This document shows, piece after piece, positions 33,097-43,371 of a stretch of 64,000 nucleotides of DNA. The notes beneath the pieces are model-generated. The model ran no database searches, had not been told where the DNA came from, and was given only the letters and a program-made list of their open reading frames with translations. The translations under genes were made by a program, and so were the position numbers. Location: contig JADGAN010000009.1 of the NCBI GenBank assembly GCA_015231955.1, forward strand, positions 62,001 through 126,000, in the 5' to 3' direction. The stretch's first letter is position 1. The number at the start of each line of letters is the position of its first letter. The stretch comes from Oligoflexia bacterium (GTDB lineage Bacteria; Bdellovibrionota; Bacteriovoracia; Bacteriovoracales; Bacteriovoracaceae).

Positions 33097-34443
33097 TCAA
33101 TTCTTGGAGACTAAAAACTCCTGCTTCCAAGTCAGAGCGATAAAGAAAATAGCAATAAAGCAGCTGGCAACTAACACCATATAGGTCTCTCTCCAACTGT
33201 AGGTTTGGGTGATCCATGCCAGTACAATACCAGAACTGGTGGCACCAAAAGCGTAGCTAAAAAAGCCTGCAAATCCGCAAGCAGCAGAGGTGGCCTCACG
33301 AACAGTGATGCGACTCATTTGCACCCCACCCACCAGATTTTGAGGTCCATCTACAAAAAAGCCAATACCCGCAATGCAGATACTCGAAAGCAGCATATGA
33401 TCGGGGCCGGCAAAGAGGTAAAAGCCCCAAATACTTAAAGCAAGAAACAGCATATAGATAATATTGATTTGAGTGCAGCGACCTTGAAACAGCTTATCAG
33501 AAAGATATCCGGCCATAATTCCACCCGGCATTCCAAAAAGCGGCATAAGCGACCAGAGCAGTGGATTTTGTACCTTACCCACCCCACGCTCATCCATAAA
33601 AAGCACGGCCCAATCGAGTGTCCCAAAGCGAATCAAGTAGATAAAAATATAGGCAAAACTTAAATACCACACAAACTTATTGGCAAAAACATACTTTACC
33701 AGCGTCTGCCACTGAGAAAGCTCACCCTCTTTTTTAAGCGGTAGCGGATCGTTAAAGAAATCCTCAACAGGAGGAAGACCAACAACACTGGGACGATCAC
33801 AAAGGGTTTTAAAGAGGAAAAAGGAGGAGAGCAAACCGATAACTCCTGGAACATAAAAGATGCTTTGCCAACCGATGTAACCTTGGTGATAAAGAAAGAT
33901 CAACAGTGCCACTAATTGCCCGACTAAGAATGCTCCCAAGGTATGCGATGAAGACCACAATGTCCACTTCGTCCCTCGCTCACTAGGAGAGAACCAGTGA
34001 ACAAGTCCTTTGGCCACAGGAGGAAAGCCCATCGATTGCACCCCTGAGTTTAATCCCCAAAAAAAGACCAAGGCCCATATAGAAACTAAATAACCATAAA
34101 AGAAGTTAACAAGAGAAGAGAGCAGAAGACCTAAGGCCATAAATTTTCTCATATCGGCCTTGTCAGCAAGGACTCCACTTAAAAATTTCCCAATCCCATA
34201 AACAACGTGTCCCACCGATGCAATGATCCCCAACTCTATAACATCCACTTTTAGTTCATGACTAAAAAGTGCAATTCCTGGAGAGAGATTTTTTCTAGTA
34301 AGATAATAAACAACATAACCAAGGTACATTCCGAAGAAAACTTTGATCCTCATCAGGCGGTAGGTTTTAACAATCTCTGCCTTATTAGTGAGTTTATGAG
34401 CAGACTCAGGCGGTTCTTTGAAATAATCAATTAGCTTTGACAT
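33097..34443 (-). CDS. UhpC/GlpT-type organophosphate:phosphate antiporter (MFS)
   Basis: 448 residues, 12 predicted membrane helices. MRIKVFFGMYLGYVVYYLTRKNLS near the start is the first helix of the OPA family, with YLTRKNLS holding a conserved Arg; GKFLSGVLADKADMR is the MFS loop 2-3 motif. It imports a sugar phosphate in exchange for phosphate, or senses it, as UhpC does. It is 129 bp after the aro operon with its own likely -10 (TATAAT, 34481-34476), so it is probably a separate unit. Confidence 0.85.
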   Translation of the reverse strand: MSKLIDYFKEPPESAHKLTNKAEIVKTYRLMRIKVFFGMYLGYVVYYLTRKNLSPGIALFSHELKVDVIELGIIASVGHVVYGIGKFLSGVLADKADMRKFMALGLLLSSLVNFFYGYLVSIWALVFFWGLNSGVQSMGFPPVAKGLVHWFSPSERGTKWTLWSSSHTLGAFLVGQLVALLIFLYHQGYIGWQSIFYVPGVIGLLSSFFLFKTLCDRPSVVGLPPVEDFFNDPLPLKKEGELSQWQTLVKYVFANKFVWYLSFAYIFIYLIRFGTLDWAVLFMDERGVGKVQNPLLWSLMPLFGMPGGIMAGYLSDKLFQGRCTQINIIYMLFLALSIWGFYLFAGPDHMLLSSICIAGIGFFVDGPQNLVGGVQMSRITVREATSAACGFAGFFSYAFGATSSGIVLAWITQTYSWRETYMVLVASCFIAIFFIALTWKQEFLVSKN

Positions 34444-34571: not shown

Positions 34572-36089
34572 CTATAACAATGCTGCTTTTGCTAGCTGCA
34601 AGGCCCGCAGGCGAGCGTTCATCCAATCAACCTCAAGTGTGGGAAACCATGCTTTAAATTGATAAAGCGCTTGCAACGCAAACATCTGATATCCGTAGAT
34701 CACTGGGCAACCACGAGAACGAGACAGCATCAGCAGTGGCGTCTCTTTGGGATTGGAAATAATATCAAACACAATGGTTGAGGGAGAGAGTAGCGATTGA
34801 TCAAAGAGTATCTCCAGCGAAGGGATTGTATTCACTAAGATCTTGTAGTTTTTAAAATCAAGCGCATTAAGCTCTTCCCACCTCTTGGCCATGCAACCAA
34901 AATCTTCTGCAATAGCGTTTGCCTTAGAAAAAGTGCGACTAATAATGGTCACCACAGCGCCTTGTTGTCTGGCCTCATAAGCGATGGCCCTGGCCGCCCC
35001 TCCGGCCCCTAAAAGCAAGAGTTGCTCTCCTTTGCAAGAGTTGGATAGGGTCTCGCTTATGGCATCGAGCGCTCCCAATCCATCACAATTAAATCCATGG
35101 AATTGTTGCTGTTGTCGAATGCAAATTGTATTCACCGCCACTATTTTGACCGCATGTGCATCAATGGTATCTAAATACTGCATGATGGTCTCTTTATGGG
35201 GCATGGTCACACTTAAACCATAAAGCGGAAGCTCTTTAAGAAGAGTCAAAACCGCTTCTAACTCCTTTGTCAAAACTTTAAATTTGATATAGACAGCGTT
35301 TAGTTTTAGCTCTCTAAAGAGGGCATTGTGGGTCTTATCACTAATGCTTTTATCAACGGGATCGCCGATAAGCGCATAGATAGCGGTTTGCCGGTCAAGA
35401 GAAGCATAATGGTATTGATCTAAGAGTGTCTTAATAGGTAGTTGTCCAGGTGCCGATGCATTTTTTTTATCGCAAGTTATCGTTGCATAAGTAATTTTAC
35501 TTCCAAGAATTTTTCCCACAATACGTGAGGGCATCCCTAACTCACCCATAGAGATTGTGATCAGCTCATGTTTTTTGCTATTTTTAATCGTAAATTGCAT
35601 TAAGCGAAGAGTATCTAGAGTGCTATTACTCATGAAAGCAAGTTTATAGAGGTCTCCGTTTTTAGTAAGCATGGAAGAAAAAATTTGCTGAATGGTTTGC
35701 TCTGAGGGAGTTTTAGTAAAATCGTGATACGAAAGGATTAATTTTATTTGAGGAAATTTTTCTCGAAAGGCAAGTATGAACTTTTCATTGCTATCAGCTT
35801 CAAGATCAACATAATCGGGAGCACCTGCTATGCTTATTGCTAATAGTATTGATTGCCGCCGCTCTTCACTCTCTTTGAAGTGCCCACCCTGATATAGCGT
35901 TCTTAGAGTGAAAATTTTAGGAGTGGTGAGCACTCTTAGATCAGCACAGATTTTCAACAACTCTTCAATGCTAAAATCCATGAGATAATCGAAACGCACT
36001 TCCAGCAAATCAGCGTTTTGTTGCAAGGCCTTTTGGATTTGCTCGTTTATTTCACCGTGATTGCTTCCATTAATTACAACACAAATCAT
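34572..36089 (-). CDS. aroDE: Bifunctional 3-dehydroquinate dehydratase / shikimate dehydrogenase
   Basis: 505 residues. Residues 1-225 are a class I dehydroquinase: E30 in LLEVRFD, H122 in SYHDF and Schiff-base K149 in DLYKLAF. Residues about 237-505 are shikimate dehydrogenase: IGDPVDKSISDKTHN for the substrate, the Lys of SVTMPHKE, NCDGLG and the NADP loop LLLGAGGAARA. It carries out two consecutive steps, dehydroquinate to shikimate. The start overlaps the aroB end by 20 bp. The fusion is known in Chlamydiae and plants and is uncommon elsewhere. Confidence 0.95.
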   Translation of the reverse strand: MICVVINGSNHGEINEQIQKALQQNADLLEVRFDYLMDFSIEELLKICADLRVLTTPKIFTLRTLYQGGHFKESEERRQSILLAISIAGAPDYVDLEADSNEKFILAFREKFPQIKLILSYHDFTKTPSEQTIQQIFSSMLTKNGDLYKLAFMSNSTLDTLRLMQFTIKNSKKHELITISMGELGMPSRIVGKILGSKITYATITCDKKNASAPGQLPIKTLLDQYHYASLDRQTAIYALIGDPVDKSISDKTHNALFRELKLNAVYIKFKVLTKELEAVLTLLKELPLYGLSVTMPHKETIMQYLDTIDAHAVKIVAVNTICIRQQQQFHGFNCDGLGALDAISETLSNSCKGEQLLLLGAGGAARAIAYEARQQGAVVTIISRTFSKANAIAEDFGCMAKRWEELNALDFKNYKILVNTIPSLEILFDQSLLSPSTIVFDIISNPKETPLLMLSRSRGCPVIYGYQMFALQALYQFKAWFPTLEVDWMNARLRALQLAKAALL

Positions 36090-37131
36090 CTTGCATCCAT
36101 TGTATTGCTTTGGTTATTATACTTTCATCAATATATTCACAGTACCTACCCTGAAAATCGTAGGCCTCACCAATAGTTTTAAGTAGCACAAAGCGTGGAG
36201 TATTTTTAAGTGCCTTTTTGTCGTAAACCATGCACGCTTGAATTTTCTTAGCATCAATTCCGTTTGGAAAATAAAGGGGGATCGCATAGTCAGCAACTAT
36301 TTTTTTCAAGCGTTCGAAGTCACTTTGTGGGAACTTTCCTAATAGCATGCCCATATAAGACTCCACCAGCATCCCTTGGGCCACGGCCTCTCCATGTCCC
36401 ATAGAGTAGTTCGATAATGTTTCCATGGCATGCGCATAGGTGTGCCCAAAATTCAAAAGATGGCGCTTAGCTTTTTCACGCTCATCCTCCTTTACCACTG
36501 CTGTTTTAATCCTTACACTCTCCTGGATCGCTTGTTCTACAACTTTTTGATCTTGGCGTAAAATATTCTCCACGTTTTTTTCCATAAAACCGAAATAGTC
36601 CGCATCCAAAACCGCTCCATGCTTAATCATCTCTACAATACCATTTTTAAACTCCGCAACTGGGAGCGATTTTAAAAATTTAGGATCGATGATGATTTTC
36701 TGGGGTTGATAAATGGTACCGATTAAATTTTTACCCGAAGGGGTATCCACGCCATTTTTTCCACCAATGCTAGCATCAACCATGGCCAAGAGAGAGGTTG
36801 GTATCATCACCAGAGGAACACCTCTGCAAAAAGTTGCCGCTACATAACCGGCAATATCTGTTACCACTCCACCTCCCATGGCCACCACCACACTATCTTT
36901 ACCAAAAGCTTTAAAGAACATTTGATCTTCAATCATCTCTTTGGTGTGACGATTTTTATACTGTTCTCCTGGAGGAAAAGAGAAAAGCTCTGCCGCTATC
37001 TTAGCACTCTTGAGCAAACGATAAAACGGCTCAGCGTAGAGGGAGAGGATGGTATCATTGGTGATGATCGCAACTTTATAGTTTTGATAATTGCTCTGTA
37101 AGTAGCTCACCATTTCTGCAAAAAAATTCAT
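36070..37131 (-). CDS. aroB: 3-dehydroquinate synthase
   Basis: 353 residues from the ATG at 37131, which overlaps the aroC stop (ATGA); the frame is open upstream to 37221 but those codons lie within aroC. The NAD site VVAMGGGVVTD, the IPTSLLAMVDASIGGKNGVD signature, the metal ligands in EMIKHG and LLNFGHTYAHAME are visible. It turns DAHP into 3-dehydroquinate, the second step of the pathway, using NAD and a divalent metal. Confidence 0.95.
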   Translation of the reverse strand: MNFFAEMVSYLQSNYQNYKVAIITNDTILSLYAEPFYRLLKSAKIAAELFSFPPGEQYKNRHTKEMIEDQMFFKAFGKDSVVVAMGGGVVTDIAGYVAATFCRGVPLVMIPTSLLAMVDASIGGKNGVDTPSGKNLIGTIYQPQKIIIDPKFLKSLPVAEFKNGIVEMIKHGAVLDADYFGFMEKNVENILRQDQKVVEQAIQESVRIKTAVVKEDEREKAKRHLLNFGHTYAHAMETLSNYSMGHGEAVAQGMLVESYMGMLLGKFPQSDFERLKKIVADYAIPLYFPNGIDAKKIQACMVYDKKALKNTPRFVLLKTIGEAYDFQGRYCEYIDESIITKAIQWMQDDLCCN

Positions 37132-38234
37132 GCCACTGCACCTTTGTTTAAAAGTATGGCGTCGGCCAAAACGATAGAAAGCATAGCATCCACCACCACG
37201 ACACCACGGATTGCCACACAAGGATCGTGCTTTGATCCTTCAGGAAGGGAAAAGCGGGCCTCTTGGTAATCGAGGGTTAAGGTCATTTGAGTCTTTTTAA
37301 TGCTCGAGGTAGGCTTAAAAGCAAGGCGTCCTGTGATCGGCATTCCTGTGGATATACCACCTAAAATACCACCAGCATGATTGCTCTTGGTTTTAACTAA
37401 TCCCGTTTCTTGTTCTAAGATGAATTGATCATTATGTTCATGGCCTTGCATGCTTGCACTCGCAAAGCCACTGCCAATTTCAAATCCCTTGACGGCCGGA
37501 ATGCTCATCATCGCCGCTGCAAGTTTGGAGGATAATTTTTCATAGACAGGATCACCCAGACCGCAAGGAACATTTTGTGCTACAAATTCTACGACTCCAC
37601 CAATGGAATCACCCTCGTCCTTCATTTTAGAGATCAAATCAATCATATGAAGTGTGGCGGTTTTGTCTGGACAAAAAAGGGGACTCTCTTGTGTTTGCTT
37701 ACAAAGTTCTGGATATCCCATTGCCTCTATTGCAACTTGGGAGACGCTAATAGAACCCATTTGTTTTAAATAAGCAAGCGTTGTGATGTGGTGGCGTGAT
37801 AAGATTTTTTTGGCCACTACCCCTGCTGCCACCCTGGCTGCAGTCTCTCTTGCGGAAGAGCGCCCTCCTCCGCGATAATCAAAAATTTTATATTTTTCCA
37901 GGTAGGTGAAATTGGCATGTCCCGGCCTTAGTAGTGAATGGATGGGTTCATACTTACTCGAATCGTAATTGCTATTTTTAATTTGAATCGAAATTGGTGC
38001 ACCTGTGGTTTTACCCTTGAAAATGCCGGAAAGAATTTCCGCTTGATCACTCTCCTTGCGAGGAGAAGTATAGGGATTATGTCCTGGGGCGCGTAGTGCC
38101 AGTGCTTGATTTACTTCTTGCAGATCCAGCTCTAGCCCTGCCGGACAACCATCAATAACGACTCCAATGGCAGTCCCATGAGACTCTCCCCATGTCGTTA
38201 TTTTGAAGATAGTTCCAAATGAATTAGCGGCCAT
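37128..38234 (-). CDS. aroC: Chorismate synthase
   Basis: 368 residues of the usual length. Signatures: TWGESHGTAIGVVIDGCPAG near the start, RPGHAN, YRGGGRSSARETAARVAAG and the C-terminal AVRGVVV-like stretch. It makes chorismate from EPSP and needs reduced FMN. It overlaps the aroAK stop by 11 bp and aroB by 4 bp, so the three are tightly coupled. Confidence 0.95.
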   Translation of the reverse strand: MAANSFGTIFKITTWGESHGTAIGVVIDGCPAGLELDLQEVNQALALRAPGHNPYTSPRKESDQAEILSGIFKGKTTGAPISIQIKNSNYDSSKYEPIHSLLRPGHANFTYLEKYKIFDYRGGGRSSARETAARVAAGVVAKKILSRHHITTLAYLKQMGSISVSQVAIEAMGYPELCKQTQESPLFCPDKTATLHMIDLISKMKDEGDSIGGVVEFVAQNVPCGLGDPVYEKLSSKLAAAMMSIPAVKGFEIGSGFASASMQGHEHNDQFILEQETGLVKTKSNHAGGILGGISTGMPITGRLAFKPTSSIKKTQMTLTLDYQEARFSLPEGSKHDPCVAIRGVVVVDAMLSIVLADAILLNKGAVA

Positions 38235-40056
38235 GATCTAACCTCCTTAAACATAAATCAACTATAGCGTCGAGATCCAAGTGATCGATATTATCCAAAA
38301 TAAGATCTGCACTCTCTTCGTAACCAGGGCCACGCTTTTCTACCAAATTAATAAACTCTCTATTCGCATCCTCTCCCTGAGAATGCAAATAGGCGGGAAG
38401 GATGCGATCTCTTTTGCAGATCCGTGCAAAACACTCTGCTGGCGAGGTTTTTAGATAGATGACGGTTCCTAATTTTTTTAAGGCGGCAACGTTTGCACCA
38501 CTTGCAAAAGCACCTCCTCCTGTAGCTATCACACTGTTCTTCTGAGGAGCAAGCGAGGCAATGCACTCTTCTTCCAATTGGCGAAAAAAGGCCTCTCCTT
38601 TTTTATTAAAGATCTCTTTGCACGAAAATTTCTCTCCATGTCTGGCAGCATAGACATCTTCCACGAGACGATCACAATCCAGAAATTGATAGTGTAATTT
38701 TTTTGCCAATAAATCTCCTATCGCACTTTTTCCACAAGCTGGTGCTCCACAGAGCAGGATATTGCTTACAATCGTGGCCCCAATCGCAGAAAAATCTTCT
38801 CTGAAATTTGGATAAGTTTTTTTCACACACTCTACATCCACAATCTGACTATCCCCGCTAGCAGCAAGTGCGGCCACCGCTAAAGACATCACCATGCGAT
38901 GATCGTGGTACGATTGTAACTTGCACCCGTTAAGTTTTGATTTACGAATAACTAGTCCATCGCTACTCTCTCTAATATCTGCGCCCATCTTTTTTAATTC
39001 ACTATAGATACAGTGAAGGCGATTGCACTCTTTGTTTTTAGCAATGGCCGCATTGTAGATGGTTGTTTCTCCTTCTGCAAAACAGGCGATAACCGCTAAG
39101 ATGGTTATGCTATCAATGAAATCATTGATATCGATTTTTTTTCCTTGCAGTGACTGCGTCTTATGAATTTTTAGTTGCCGTTTACTCTCATCATAATCGA
39201 TCTTTGCGCCCATAGAGATGAGTACCGAGATCAGCTGTTTATCCCCTTGCACATCACTCATATCCAAATTGTTTAAGATAAGCTCTGACTTTGTAATAAT
39301 GGCCGCGGCAATCGCAAAGGCCGCCGAACTAAAATCACCCGGTACCGTATACTCAAAACCAGCATGGGTAGAGTTACCGGCAATTTTATAGTATTGAAAA
39401 TCTTTTTGTTCATACTGGATATTTAAGCGGCAAAACCAATCTAGAGTTAAATTAACCCACGCTTTCTCTCCTGGATTTACCACATGAAGTTCTGTTGGCC
39501 CGGGCGCATAGGCACTGGCGATAAGTAGGGCCGAGACAGGTTGAGAATCTTCACCACTGATGGTGGCCTTTTGCTGTCCTAAAAGTGGCCCCTTTACAAT
39601 GATCGGAGCAAAACCATCACCTCTCATCGAATCCACCCACACCCCAAGCTCTTTCATCGCTTGCAGCTGCGCTTGCATTGGACGTTGGTGCCGAATCGAA
39701 TGATCCCCGGTAATCACCACCGTACTAGATCCTAAGGCCCCAATGGCAGAACAGAAGCGCAAAACAATTCCTGAGTTGCCAGCATTAATCACATCTTCAG
39801 TTACAGTAATTTTACCAGAGACACCTTCAATCACTAACTGCTCTGCGAGCACAGTGATCTTTGCCCCAAACAATTTACAGGCCTCAATCATCGCAAAAGT
39901 ATCACTTGAGGGAAGGTAACGATGAATCGTGCTGGTTCCACTTGCCATAGTTGCAAATAAAATTGCCCTCAGTGTGTGTGACTTTGAGGAGGGCACTGTG
40001 ATTTCTCCACAAAGCATCCCTTGGTGAGGCAGTGGTTTTATGAAGTAGTTTCCCAT
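38224..40056 (-). CDS. aroAK: EPSP synthase-shikimate kinase fusion
   Basis: 610 residues. Residues 1-430 are EPSP synthase (SSKSHTLRAILFA, NAGNSGIVLRF, the SAAFAIAAA region and a final HHRM-like DHRMVMSLAVAAL). From residue 432 a complete shikimate kinase follows, with P-loop GAPACGKS (437-444), the DCDRLVED Asp motif, TGGGAF and RDRILPAY. In order of chemistry the kinase acts first, so the fused product hands shikimate-3-phosphate to the synthase next to it. I do not recall this fusion as a common bacterial form; fungal AROM is another fusion of these enzymes. Confidence 0.93.
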   Translation of the reverse strand: MGNYFIKPLPHQGMLCGEITVPSSKSHTLRAILFATMASGTSTIHRYLPSSDTFAMIEACKLFGAKITVLAEQLVIEGVSGKITVTEDVINAGNSGIVLRFCSAIGALGSSTVVITGDHSIRHQRPMQAQLQAMKELGVWVDSMRGDGFAPIIVKGPLLGQQKATISGEDSQPVSALLIASAYAPGPTELHVVNPGEKAWVNLTLDWFCRLNIQYEQKDFQYYKIAGNSTHAGFEYTVPGDFSSAAFAIAAAIITKSELILNNLDMSDVQGDKQLISVLISMGAKIDYDESKRQLKIHKTQSLQGKKIDINDFIDSITILAVIACFAEGETTIYNAAIAKNKECNRLHCIYSELKKMGADIRESSDGLVIRKSKLNGCKLQSYHDHRMVMSLAVAALAASGDSQIVDVECVKKTYPNFREDFSAIGATIVSNILLCGAPACGKSAIGDLLAKKLHYQFLDCDRLVEDVYAARHGEKFSCKEIFNKKGEAFFRQLEEECIASLAPQKNSVIATGGGAFASGANVAALKKLGTVIYLKTSPAECFARICKRDRILPAYLHSQGEDANREFINLVEKRGPGYEESADLILDNIDHLDLDAIVDLCLRRLDHGR

Positions 40057-40071
40057 GTTTTATCCTTCTTA

Positions 40072-41265
40072 TTATCCTTTTATCACTTGTAAGCTTTTTT
40101 CGAGTTGCCAAATTTCTTGCGTGGCCCTTTTAATCGCCTTTAGTCCATCAACAATATCACTTTCAGGACAAGCAAATGATAAGCGAACATAATCTTGAAC
40201 ACCAAAGGCACACCCTGGAACCACTGCTGCATTATAATCTTGCAGAAGTTTGCTACAAAATGCAACACCATTTATAGATTGAGGAGTGCCAAAAGCACTC
40301 TGCGGAATAAAAGCGTAAAGCGCTGACTTGGGAGCTCTAATGCCAGCATTAAAATGTAAATTAAACTCTTGAATGAAAAGATCCCTTCGTTTTTGCATCT
40401 CCCTTTTCACATAGAGGTTCACCTCCGCATAGTTTTCCAAGGCAGCAATCGCGGCCTCTTGCGATGCCAGCGATGCCGCTGTAATGGTTTGCCCCTGTAA
40501 GCTACAGATTTTGGTCACTAGCTTTACTGGTGCTACCGCAAGACCAATACGCCATCCACTGAGCGCAAAATTTTTAGAACAACTTTGCACAATAGAAACT
40601 TGCTCTCGATACTTTGGAAAAGAGGCACAGGAGATAAAAGGGTGATCCTTCTCATAAGCAAGCCCACTATAAACCTCATCAGAGATCACATGCAGCTGGT
40701 GTTGGTGTGCAAGTTCTAAAATTGCTTCCAACTCCTCTTGGGAGTAAATCTCTCCTGTGGGATTATTGGCACTATTAATAATTAAAATTTTACTTGTAGC
40801 TGAAATCGCTTTAGCAATCTCTTCCACCCCCACTTTCAAACCCTTTTTTGCATGAACTATTTTTGCTACACCACCGGCCAACTCCACCATTGCTGGATAA
40901 GAGACCCAGTAAGGGGCCAAAAGCAAAACCTCATCTTTAGGCCTTAACAGTGCACAGAGAAGAAGGTAGAGTGCAAATTTCCCACCACTGGTCACCACAA
41001 CATTTTCCACGCTAAAGTTACTCTTACACGTTTGATTAAGCCAGGAACTGGCCAAGTCCCGAAGCTGTTTAAGCCCTGCCACCGGAGCATAGGGAGAGTA
41101 TCCTAGCTCAACTAGTTTCATCACCCTCTCAATCACCAAGTCATGGTTTTTTATACAGGGATCTCCCGCAGAAAAGTTATAAACTTTCTGTGCTAGTTTC
41201 ATCTTTTCTTGAGCAAGATTATGAATCGCCACTGTGGCCGATTCTTGAAGGTTGCTGCTTTTCAT
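40072..41265 (-). CDS. PLP-dependent aminotransferase, class I/II (probably aromatic/aspartate)
   Basis: 397 residues from the ATG at 41265, overlapping the tyrA stop (ATGA). The fold-type I motifs are NNPTGEIYS, SDEVYSGLAYE, and SCSKNFALSGWRIG with the PLP Lys. The GDPC and SGGKFALY stretches fit the aspartate/aromatic aminotransferase family. In this operon it most likely converts 4-hydroxyphenylpyruvate to tyrosine, the step after the dehydrogenase (inference from position). Confidence 0.9.
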   Translation of the reverse strand: MKSSNLQESATVAIHNLAQEKMKLAQKVYNFSAGDPCIKNHDLVIERVMKLVELGYSPYAPVAGLKQLRDLASSWLNQTCKSNFSVENVVVTSGGKFALYLLLCALLRPKDEVLLLAPYWVSYPAMVELAGGVAKIVHAKKGLKVGVEEIAKAISATSKILIINSANNPTGEIYSQEELEAILELAHQHQLHVISDEVYSGLAYEKDHPFISCASFPKYREQVSIVQSCSKNFALSGWRIGLAVAPVKLVTKICSLQGQTITAASLASQEAAIAALENYAEVNLYVKREMQKRRDLFIQEFNLHFNAGIRAPKSALYAFIPQSAFGTPQSINGVAFCSKLLQDYNAAVVPGCAFGVQDYVRLSFACPESDIVDGLKAIKRATQEIWQLEKSLQVIKG

Positions 41266-42320
41266 AGTTCTCTTCCCTTTCGCATATAACGAATCCATAA
41301 GTTTAAATATTTTTGAATGTAATTTTTATTATACCGTTTGATTTCAAATTGCATGGCAGGATTATCATGGGCCAGTCGAGTAAAAGATTGAAATCCAGGA
41401 CCTGCAAATTTTATACTGGACTTATCATGATCCAAAATAAAATCCAAATAAGCTTTTGATAAAAGCGCCGGCAAATGAGAAATCAGTGCCACTTTCTTAT
41501 CGTGATTTTGTGGCGCTAAAGTGCGAGGTACACCACCAACAAGCGAGATCAAGCTTTTAATTTTGCTTATTGTATGTTTACAATTTTGATCATGAGGAAC
41601 AATAATCCAGGGACGATGAACAAAGAGCGTTGCCTCACTATTGCTTATCCCGCTTTTTTCTTTGCCCGCCATGGGATGCGTACTCACGAACTCTAGTTTA
41701 GAGTTCGAGTTTTGTTGAAAATATTGATTAATCTTGGCCTTCACACTCGCCACATCCATAACAATAAGTTTCTTCTCTCTCTTCTGTGCGGCCTTGGTAA
41801 TTTTTTGCGCCACCTCTGTGATCGTTGACAGAGGCGAGGCCAAAATAATAAGATCAACATGCCTAAGCAGCACTTTAAAGGAGCGGTACTCATGATCAAC
41901 AAGTCCACTCTCTCGCGCACTCCTAGAATCGCTATCCTCACGCTTGATGCTTACAATTTTCATTGCCGGATTTTGCAATTTTATTGCCTTACAAAGGGAT
42001 CCTCCTAGTAGTCCTAATCCAATCACCGCAATCTTGGTAAAAGGAGGTTTTACCTTATGAGATAGGGCCTGCGTAATTCTAGAGAGGGTGAAAATATCAT
42101 TGTAAAGCCCAGGGAGTTTCTCTTTTAATACTGGATGATCCACCTGCTGTAACAGTTGTGCTACAATTCTCTTTTCTCGCTGGGCCTGATATATTTTGGC
42201 GCGTTTTTGTCGTTTGAGCTTGCCAATTTCAGTGACAACATCCATCCGTTTTTGCAATAAGCTCACAAGTTGCCTATCAATTTCATCAATAGCGGTGCGA
42301 TGTTTTATCAACTTTTTCAT
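41262..42320 (-). CDS. tyrA: Chorismate mutase-prephenate dehydrogenase
   Basis: 352 residues. Residues 1-88 are an AroQ-type chorismate mutase (IDEIDRQLVSLLQKRMDVVTEIGKLK). From about 94 the prephenate dehydrogenase begins, with NAD loop GLGLLGGS (101-108), the THPMAG motif with its catalytic His and the SHLPALL region. The same two-domain order occurs in enteric T-protein. The product goes to tyrosine. No prephenate dehydratase lies in the operon. GGGGGGA lies before the start. Confidence 0.95.
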   Translation of the reverse strand: MKKLIKHRTAIDEIDRQLVSLLQKRMDVVTEIGKLKRQKRAKIYQAQREKRIVAQLLQQVDHPVLKEKLPGLYNDIFTLSRITQALSHKVKPPFTKIAVIGLGLLGGSLCKAIKLQNPAMKIVSIKREDSDSRSARESGLVDHEYRSFKVLLRHVDLIILASPLSTITEVAQKITKAAQKREKKLIVMDVASVKAKINQYFQQNSNSKLEFVSTHPMAGKEKSGISNSEATLFVHRPWIIVPHDQNCKHTISKIKSLISLVGGVPRTLAPQNHDKKVALISHLPALLSKAYLDFILDHDKSSIKFAGPGFQSFTRLAHDNPAMQFEIKRYNKNYIQKYLNLWIRYMRKGREL

Positions 42321-42331
42321 AAAATCCCCCC

Positions 42332-43165
42332 CTAAAAGGCCATCTGCTGCATGCTACACTTTGTTGTTGTTTCAAGCACGGCCTCTTCTCGTATGATCTT
42401 TAAAACCTGCTCAAACTCAGCAAGAGTTAACTGCTGTTTAGCATCGGTTTTCGCCACACTTGGATTAGTATGCACCTCAACCATATATCCATCAAAATCG
42501 TATTGACTTGCCTCTTGGCAAATAGAGATTACATTTTGCGAACTACCTCCAATATGTGAGGGATCAAGCAGCATAGGAAGCCCACTCTTGGCCTTTACTC
42601 TCATCGCCATCTCAAAATCGGGGAGATTTCTTAGTCCTATGGGATTTGCTTGCTTGCCTGGATAAAATCCGCGATGACAAACCATTAACCGCTCCATCGG
42701 AAATCCAGCAGAATAGAGATGCTCTGCTATGCCCATCCAGTGCCGTTCATCTTCCCACATAGGATTTTTAAACATGAGTAACACTGCTTTCGGGCCACTT
42801 GCTAAAATTTTAGCAATCTTCTTTTGTTCTAAATGATTTTGATTTCTTGCTCCTAACCACAAAACCATTTTCGCCTGCTCCTCCCCATACCTTTGCAAAG
42901 CTTGAACTGCTAGTTGTGCATGTTCTGCGCTTAAGATTTCACTCGCCGGTACTAGTCCATAAGCAAGGGTCTCCTCCAATAGAGTAGAAAGACCAATCGC
43001 ACCAGTGCCCTCCCATCCAGGGGAAGTTCGAGGTTTCCATAACGATGCACGGATATGGTTCACTCCTAGTGCCTTTAACATCAACGCCACCTCTCTTAGT
43101 TGCTGTTTTGATTCCAAGGCACATGGCCCTGCAATCACCAACTTCTCTTTTTTTTCTTTTTTCAT
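42332..43165 (-). CDS. aroF: DAHP synthase (AroG/KDO8PS-like type)
   Basis: 277 residues, the short type without a chorismate mutase domain. AGPCALES and KPRTSPGWEG bind substrate and metal; LWLGARNQN, CHRGFYPG, LDPSHIGGSS and VEVHTNPSVAKTD follow. It makes the first pathway intermediate from erythrose-4-phosphate and phosphoenolpyruvate. It is first in the operon, placed 24 bp after the attenuator U-run. No regulatory ACT or mutase domain is present, so control is likely at the leader (43252-43371), in accord with tyrosine attenuation. Confidence 0.93.
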   Translation of the reverse strand: MKKEKKEKLVIAGPCALESKQQLREVALMLKALGVNHIRASLWKPRTSPGWEGTGAIGLSTLLEETLAYGLVPASEILSAEHAQLAVQALQRYGEEQAKMVLWLGARNQNHLEQKKIAKILASGPKAVLLMFKNPMWEDERHWMGIAEHLYSAGFPMERLMVCHRGFYPGKQANPIGLRNLPDFEMAMRVKAKSGLPMLLDPSHIGGSSQNVISICQEASQYDFDGYMVEVHTNPSVAKTDAKQQLTLAEFEQVLKIIREEAVLETTTKCSMQQMAF

Positions 43166-43188: not shown

Positions 43189-43220
43189 AAAAAAAAAGGC
43201 CCCGTTTTGCGGGGCCTTTT
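43189..43220 (-). terminator. Intrinsic terminator (attenuator) before the aro operon
   Basis: On the minus strand GGCCCCG (43216-43210) pairs with CGGGGCC (43204-43198), 7 GC pairs around CAAAA, flanked by A-U pairs, and followed by nine U (43197-43189). It lies between the leader peptide stop and the first structural gene, so it should stop transcription unless an antiterminator forms. Confidence 0.85.
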
Positions 43221-43267
43221 GATGTGTTATTATTTTATCTCTTCATCATCATTAACCGGCCCGCCGC
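43198..43267 (-). promoter_or_regulatory. Possible antiterminator pairing in the aro leader
   Basis: GCGGCGGGCC (minus strand, plus positions 43267-43258) ends 4 bases before the leader stop codon. Its GGGCC pairs with GGCCC of the 5' terminator arm (43216-43212), extended by GC across a one-base bulge. A ribosome at the stop codon would cover it; a ribosome stalled on the Tyr codons (43305-43279) would leave it free. Confidence 0.55.
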
Positions 43268-43371
43268 GACTCTCCTTTAAAATAATAATAAAAGCTATAA
43301 TAATAGAGTTGCCACAATTGGCAGTTTTGAAAGCGAAGAGTGTTAGTAGGTTTTTTATATTCTAATTTCAT
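43252..43371 (-). CDS. Tyr-rich leader peptide of the aro operon
   Basis: I read a 39-codon frame from an ATG at 43371 to a TAA at 43252. It contains seven Tyr and three Phe; the core YYYSFYYYF occupies 43305-43279. The stop is 32 bases upstream of the terminator. The ribosome-binding site is weak (TTTGCGGT), and the promoter is not clear. Right after the Tyr run, AAAGGAGAG lies in the coding sequence, and the stop overlaps an ATG (TAATG) that begins a five-codon MMMKR frame. A Tyr-codon run before a terminator ahead of a tyrosine pathway operon is what a ribosome-mediated attenuator requires. Confidence 0.8.
   Translation of the reverse strand: MKLEYKKPTNTLRFQNCQLWQLYYYSFYYYFKGESRRAG

Follow-up and report, generated by a model that had tools for sequence, protein, structure and literature searches.

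A tyrosine-rich leader peptide and terminator upstream of a chlamydial-type shikimate-to-tyrosine operon in an Oligoflexia bacterium: a candidate attenuator of probable horizontal origin

Upstream of a set of aromatic amino acid biosynthesis genes in an Oligoflexia bacterium lies a short reading frame crowded with tyrosine codons and followed by a terminator, and the question raised by this locus is what that arrangement does and how it came to be there. In the window, meaning the whole 64-kb stretch of DNA analysed, the pattern YYYx(0-4)YYY occurs a single time in six-frame translation. The arrangement is very likely a tyrosine-sensing, ribosome-mediated attenuator over a complete shikimate-to-tyrosine operon, acquired together with that operon from the Chlamydiota and with its sensor codons retuned. 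The features concerned are as follows.

43252..43371, minus strand: leader peptide gene, 39 codons, with YYYSFYYYF as codons 23-31
43279..43305, minus strand: putative aromatic sensor codons, six Tyr, two Phe and one Ser
43258..43267, minus strand: proposed antiterminator strand GCGGCGGGCC, within the end of the leader ORF, predicted to pair with the terminator 5' arm
43189..43220, minus strand: intrinsic terminator, stem 43220-43194, nine U at 43197-43189
42332..43165, minus strand: aroF, DAHP synthase (PF00793), chlamydial subtype
41262..42320, minus strand: tyrA, chorismate mutase-prephenate dehydrogenase fusion (Pfam/NCBIfam)
40072..41298, minus strand: class I/II aminotransferase (Pfam/NCBIfam)
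38224..40056, minus strand: aroA-aroK fusion, EPSP synthase plus shikimate kinase (Pfam/NCBIfam)
37128..38234, minus strand: aroC, chorismate synthase, inside a Chlamydiota clade
36070..37221, minus strand: aroB, 3-dehydroquinate synthase, start codon uncertain (Pfam/NCBIfam)
34572..36089, minus strand: aroDE, fused dehydroquinase-shikimate dehydrogenase (Pfam/NCBIfam)

Downstream of the leader and terminator, the seven genes form a tightly packed operon, and, as the pathway is understood, the enzymes they encode together account for the whole conversion of PEP and erythrose-4-phosphate to tyrosine. The order aroF-tyrA-aminotransferase-aroAK-C-B-DE had been proposed in a first-pass annotation and is borne out by Pfam and NCBIfam, the top NCBIfam match of AroDE, PRK09310, scoring under its curated cut-off. 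That annotation had also described a 39-codon leader with YYYSFYYYF and a GC hairpin followed by nine U; translation confirms the former at 43371-43252 of the minus strand (ATG at 43371, TAA at 43254-43252; product MKLEYKKPTNTLRFQNCQLWQLYYYSFYYYFKGESRRAG), and the latter is found at 43220-43189, with 31 nt separating it from the leader's end. The locus possesses, as an attenuator should, a short ORF in which codons for the amino acid made by the pathway stand in a run, and after it an intrinsic terminator ahead of aroF. A single ORF (38224-40056) carries both AroA and AroK here, and in several chlamydial relatives the matches to these two parts lie in separate adjoining stretches. Just past aroDE, at 33097-34443, lies a gene for a UhpC/GlpT-like sugar-phosphate transporter, possibly part of the same transfer.

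In the proposed mechanism, scarcity of Tyr-tRNA would stall a ribosome in YYYSFYYYF, the pre-stop GCGGCGGGCC would then be open to pairing with the emerging 5' arm of the terminator, and polymerase would read through; with plentiful Tyr-tRNA, a ribosome at the stop codon would cover GCGGCGGGCC and the terminator would form. The standard ribosome footprint reaches about 10 nt beyond the A-site codon. With such a footprint and the spacing found here, a stalled ribosome would leave the G-rich motif free, and one at the stop codon would cover it. The RNA folding that the first-pass annotation had called for gives a matching picture: when a ribosome occupies the last aromatic codon and the 3' arm is still to be transcribed, the predicted fold of the window RNA is the proposed antiterminator (-16.1 kcal/mol), and when a ribosome is at the stop codon it is the terminator. 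Pairing of GCGGCGGGCC with the 5' arm, itself predicted by that annotation, beats about 99% of random segments. The claimed position of GCGGCGGGCC immediately before the stop codon needs correction, as one Gly codon (GGT) intervenes; the idea that stalling would expose it and a ribosome at the stop would hide it agrees, in the model, with both spacing and folding. At this level of folding and spacing one can recognize an antiterminator that excludes the terminator, that stalling would expose and that a ribosome at the stop codon would hide. We infer that the leader is transcribed, that ribosomes stall in it, and that the stalling is specific to Tyr.

Several observations count against the attenuator reading. 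At equilibrium the terminator (-23.6 kcal/mol) is more stable than the antiterminator (-16.1 kcal/mol), and co-transcriptional folding must therefore be assumed. Inspection by eye shows no good Shine-Dalgarno sequence for the leader ORF, and the search for a promoter gave no convincing candidate. On alignment the antiterminator stem is conserved with two-sided covariation absent, so that its support comes from energy, position and conservation. The terminator helix, which counts in favour, is 99.3% paired across 15 units, with two-sided changes in 5 of its 9 pairs. Finally, a post-stop hairpin of the CGCUUGU...ACAAGUG type, present in most chlamydial units and stronger than at least 98% of shuffles in 11 of 15, is absent from the window and from both units of locus L121; since it is not common to all members, it was not treated as defining.

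The same design recurs elsewhere. A generic detector, requiring an aromatic-rich short ORF plus a terminator and run on 3.0 Mb (both strands) of the window and collected loci, returned one match in the window; the other four convincing matches all lie before the same aroF type in chlamydiae. In two chlamydial genomes, G369 and G418, aroF is preceded by two leader-terminator units in tandem, with leaders MRRLTSFAFYYFYEIPIRREIC and MSYAQNFYFYFFYFIPPIWRET in the first genome and MKNMQAENNTRFWYYYFDRMRYGVC and MRIFNLTNGFYNSYYWCFHSHRRKIG in the second. These tandem units, at L113:1113-1424 and L121:854-1150, have different Phe/Tyr/Trp mixes. Among nine chlamydial copies of this aroF type, leaders precede two, one copy lies at a contig edge, and six have no leader visible upstream.

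A first covariance model was built from the four tandem chlamydial units alone with the window unit left out, and the window site is therefore an independent test: it scores 48.9 bits (E 2e-8), the next best site in the window reaching 13.3. Run on 234 Chlamydiota genomes, the same model gave strong matches in ten further genomes (E below 1e-8), and a second model raised an eleventh, L148, to E 5e-11. For each of the eleven, at least one of the two models gives E 5e-9 or better, and MRYLKSISLSFFFFFNLPMRRETY and MQRTKTAYFFFFFMLPTRREDC are among their leaders. Eight of these units precede Trp/Tyr permeases, by the Pfam Trp_Tyr_perm model in L140, L141, L142, L144, L146 and L147 and by resemblance, judged by eye, in L143 and L148; the remaining three (L138, L139, L145) precede an aminotransferase (Aminotran_1_2). 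A run equivalent to the window's aromatic codons is present in 15 chlamydial units, and its position, the RR near the C terminus and the spacing are found again in chlamydial units. A GGCGGG-type motif lies in most relatives 13 nt from the last aromatic codon, as GCGGCGGGCC does in the window, and the stop codon follows that last codon by 24-27 nt in most units, the window included, with an earlier stop in L141. The five units first tested all fold as antiterminators before the 3' arm is made and as terminators with a ribosome at the stop codon, and most remaining units likewise fold into antiterminators.

In the host family, the covariance-model matches resemble ordinary terminators, a matching leader being absent in the nine loci read, and the weak chlamydial matches read (E above about 1e-5) have no convincing leader. 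No Rfam family matches anywhere in the window at its curated cut-off, and no chlamydial leader locus reaches a cut-off either, the nearest being Phe_leader. By its sequence, then, the window leader is a member of a leader family uncatalogued in Rfam and shared with environmental chlamydiae.

The genes behind the leader point to the same source. The first-pass annotation had named neither the wider leader family nor a horizontal origin. The contig itself fits the 5.6-Mb host genome, since the adjoining GlmS is closest to that of the host family (50-55% identity, vs 41-43% to other families of the phylum). No host-family DAHP synthase exceeds 41% identity to that of the window, a DAHP synthase query against the genome contigs gave no match, and a search of the phylum's 357 other genomes for the AroDE fusion found none at E 1e-35. 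In trees, AroF falls within a chlamydial group with support of 99/98 after a careful search, and AroC does so with support of 100 after a quick search, in a group that also holds three gammaproteobacterial MAGs; the best AroC matches, at 60-67% identity, are mostly Parachlamydiaceae and other Chlamydiae MAGs. One Parachlamydiaceae MAG, G369, possesses tyrA-aminotransferase-aroA-aroK-aroC-aroB-aroDE in the same order as the window (L033). Its aroF, 63% identical to the window's, sits on a different contig and is followed by a gene for prephenate dehydratase and then, read by eye, the start of a chorismate mutase, and the two contigs would presumably join into one operon. A chlamydial-operon prephenate dehydratase at L128:2690-3166 stops at 158 aa, profile position 149 of 181, through either truncation or faulty assembly. 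Chlamydial-group AroC with neighbouring aro genes also occurs in Coxiellaceae, Legionellales and other gammaproteobacterial MAGs (L045, L046, L050), which suggests further transfers.

Which amino acid is sensed is the point on which the window and its relatives part. An alignment with relatives, suggested in the first-pass annotation as a check for conserved Tyr codons and terminator, upholds the terminator and the aromatic run; Tyr dominance is confined to the window, the relatives being Phe-rich or mixed. The window leader has 7 Tyr, 3 Phe and 1 Trp codons, chlamydial aro-linked leaders have 3-4 Tyr and 2-5 Phe each, and permease- or aminotransferase-linked leaders have 0-3 Tyr and 2-7 Phe, so that a clear Tyr excess is limited to the window among the units compared. 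It could be argued that the leader is a general aromatic attenuator in which Tyr and Phe codons, and Trp20, count equally and the Tyr excess has no special meaning, an account suggested by the composition of the chlamydial leaders and by the C. glutamicum aroR leader, whose Phe-Tyr-Phe answers to Phe, not Tyr (PMC11802643). The two Phe codons within the window run lend it further weight, since Phe could also be sensed, which counts against a Tyr-only reading. Tyr nevertheless fills six of the run's eight aromatic positions, vs 3.9% Tyr and 4.6% Phe codons in window genes, and the operon makes Tyr. No prephenate dehydratase was detected in the host genome by a PF00800 search (assembly about 95% complete) that was positive in 14 of 14 controls, and the host is therefore predicted to make Tyr without Phe. 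A general aromatic attenuator is thus rather unlikely. The pairing of a Tyr leader with an operon that makes Tyr and not Phe is consistent with the lack of a detected prephenate dehydratase, an enzyme encoded in the closest chlamydial operon, the independent cases being few. The attenuator was probably retuned after its horizontal acquisition, and the change in sensor codons would have run toward mainly Tyr.

Attenuators arise repeatedly, and the enterobacterial Phe_leader model also matches the window weakly (36.9 bits against a cut-off of 55), so the leader might have arisen in the host lineage, its chlamydial likeness being convergence on attenuator design. Such an independent origin is improbable given that the downstream genes group with chlamydiae, that units built in the same way precede the gene for the closest AroF relative, and that no such leader was seen in 29 upstream regions read at host-family DAHP synthases. 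Alternatively, the transfer may have left a degenerate or constitutive relic that kept its terminator and lost regulated read-through, as the weak ribosome-binding site, the missing post-stop hairpin and the distance between host and donor might suggest; this is very improbable, as the leader frame, spacing, terminator and matched G-rich element are intact despite an AroF only 63-64% identical to its closest relative. The attenuator reading retains the support of codons, G-rich element, terminator and spacing that recur in chlamydiae, and the Tyr excess stands as a feature of the window unit. On the donor side, related and mostly Phe-rich leaders lie in Chlamydiota before Trp/Tyr permease, aminotransferase or aro genes. 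It is fairly likely, in a broader reading, that an undescribed family of attenuators controls how environmental Chlamydiota take up and make aromatic amino acids, in some cases through tandem Phe/Tyr units, and that one copy was transferred, along with its operon, to an unrelated phylum and there shifted in specificity from Phe or Phe/Tyr to Tyr, in line with an operon whose product is Tyr and not Phe.

The leader family is common to two phyla, with sensor codons that appear to track the genes they control, and it opens the study of how attenuators change specificity and move with operons. It also suggests that attenuation governs the uptake of aromatic amino acids in some environmental chlamydiae. 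In the open-access literature searched, with most subscription papers outside it, no report was found of the chlamydial leader family or of a Tyr attenuator that controls an entire shikimate operon, in keeping with the earlier claim that Tyr attenuators are rarely described and that none is known to control such an operon.

Published work describes or proposes attenuation of aroF in C. glutamicum, where it responds to Phe, and in Acholeplasma and E. coli. The enterobacterial pheA Phe leader (RF01859) resembles the window in having an aromatic-codon leader with a terminator directly downstream, and its match is sub-threshold (window 36.9 and chlamydial units 28-38 bits, against a gathering cut-off of 55); the window differs in its Tyr codons and the genes that follow. 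Similarly, the C. glutamicum aroR leader upstream of aroF (PMC11802643, PMC4046766) is a leader-peptide attenuator before a DAHP synthase operon, but, compared by description, it has Phe-Tyr-Phe only, is Phe- rather than Tyr-responsive and belongs to another phylum. Acholeplasma uORFC-13-1 is likewise an upstream ORF plus terminator before aroF, with at least one Phe codon and no Tyr run, and is a computational prediction only (PMC8632094). The Salmonella mgtCBR tandem attenuators (PMC3641672) parallel L113 and L121 in placing two short ORFs in one leader of one operon, whereas the genes are different and the window has a single unit. The predicted Chlamydia trpL attenuators (PMC3937554) by description differ from the window family in their Trp codons and trp genes, and share with it a leader-peptide attenuation proposed in Chlamydiota.
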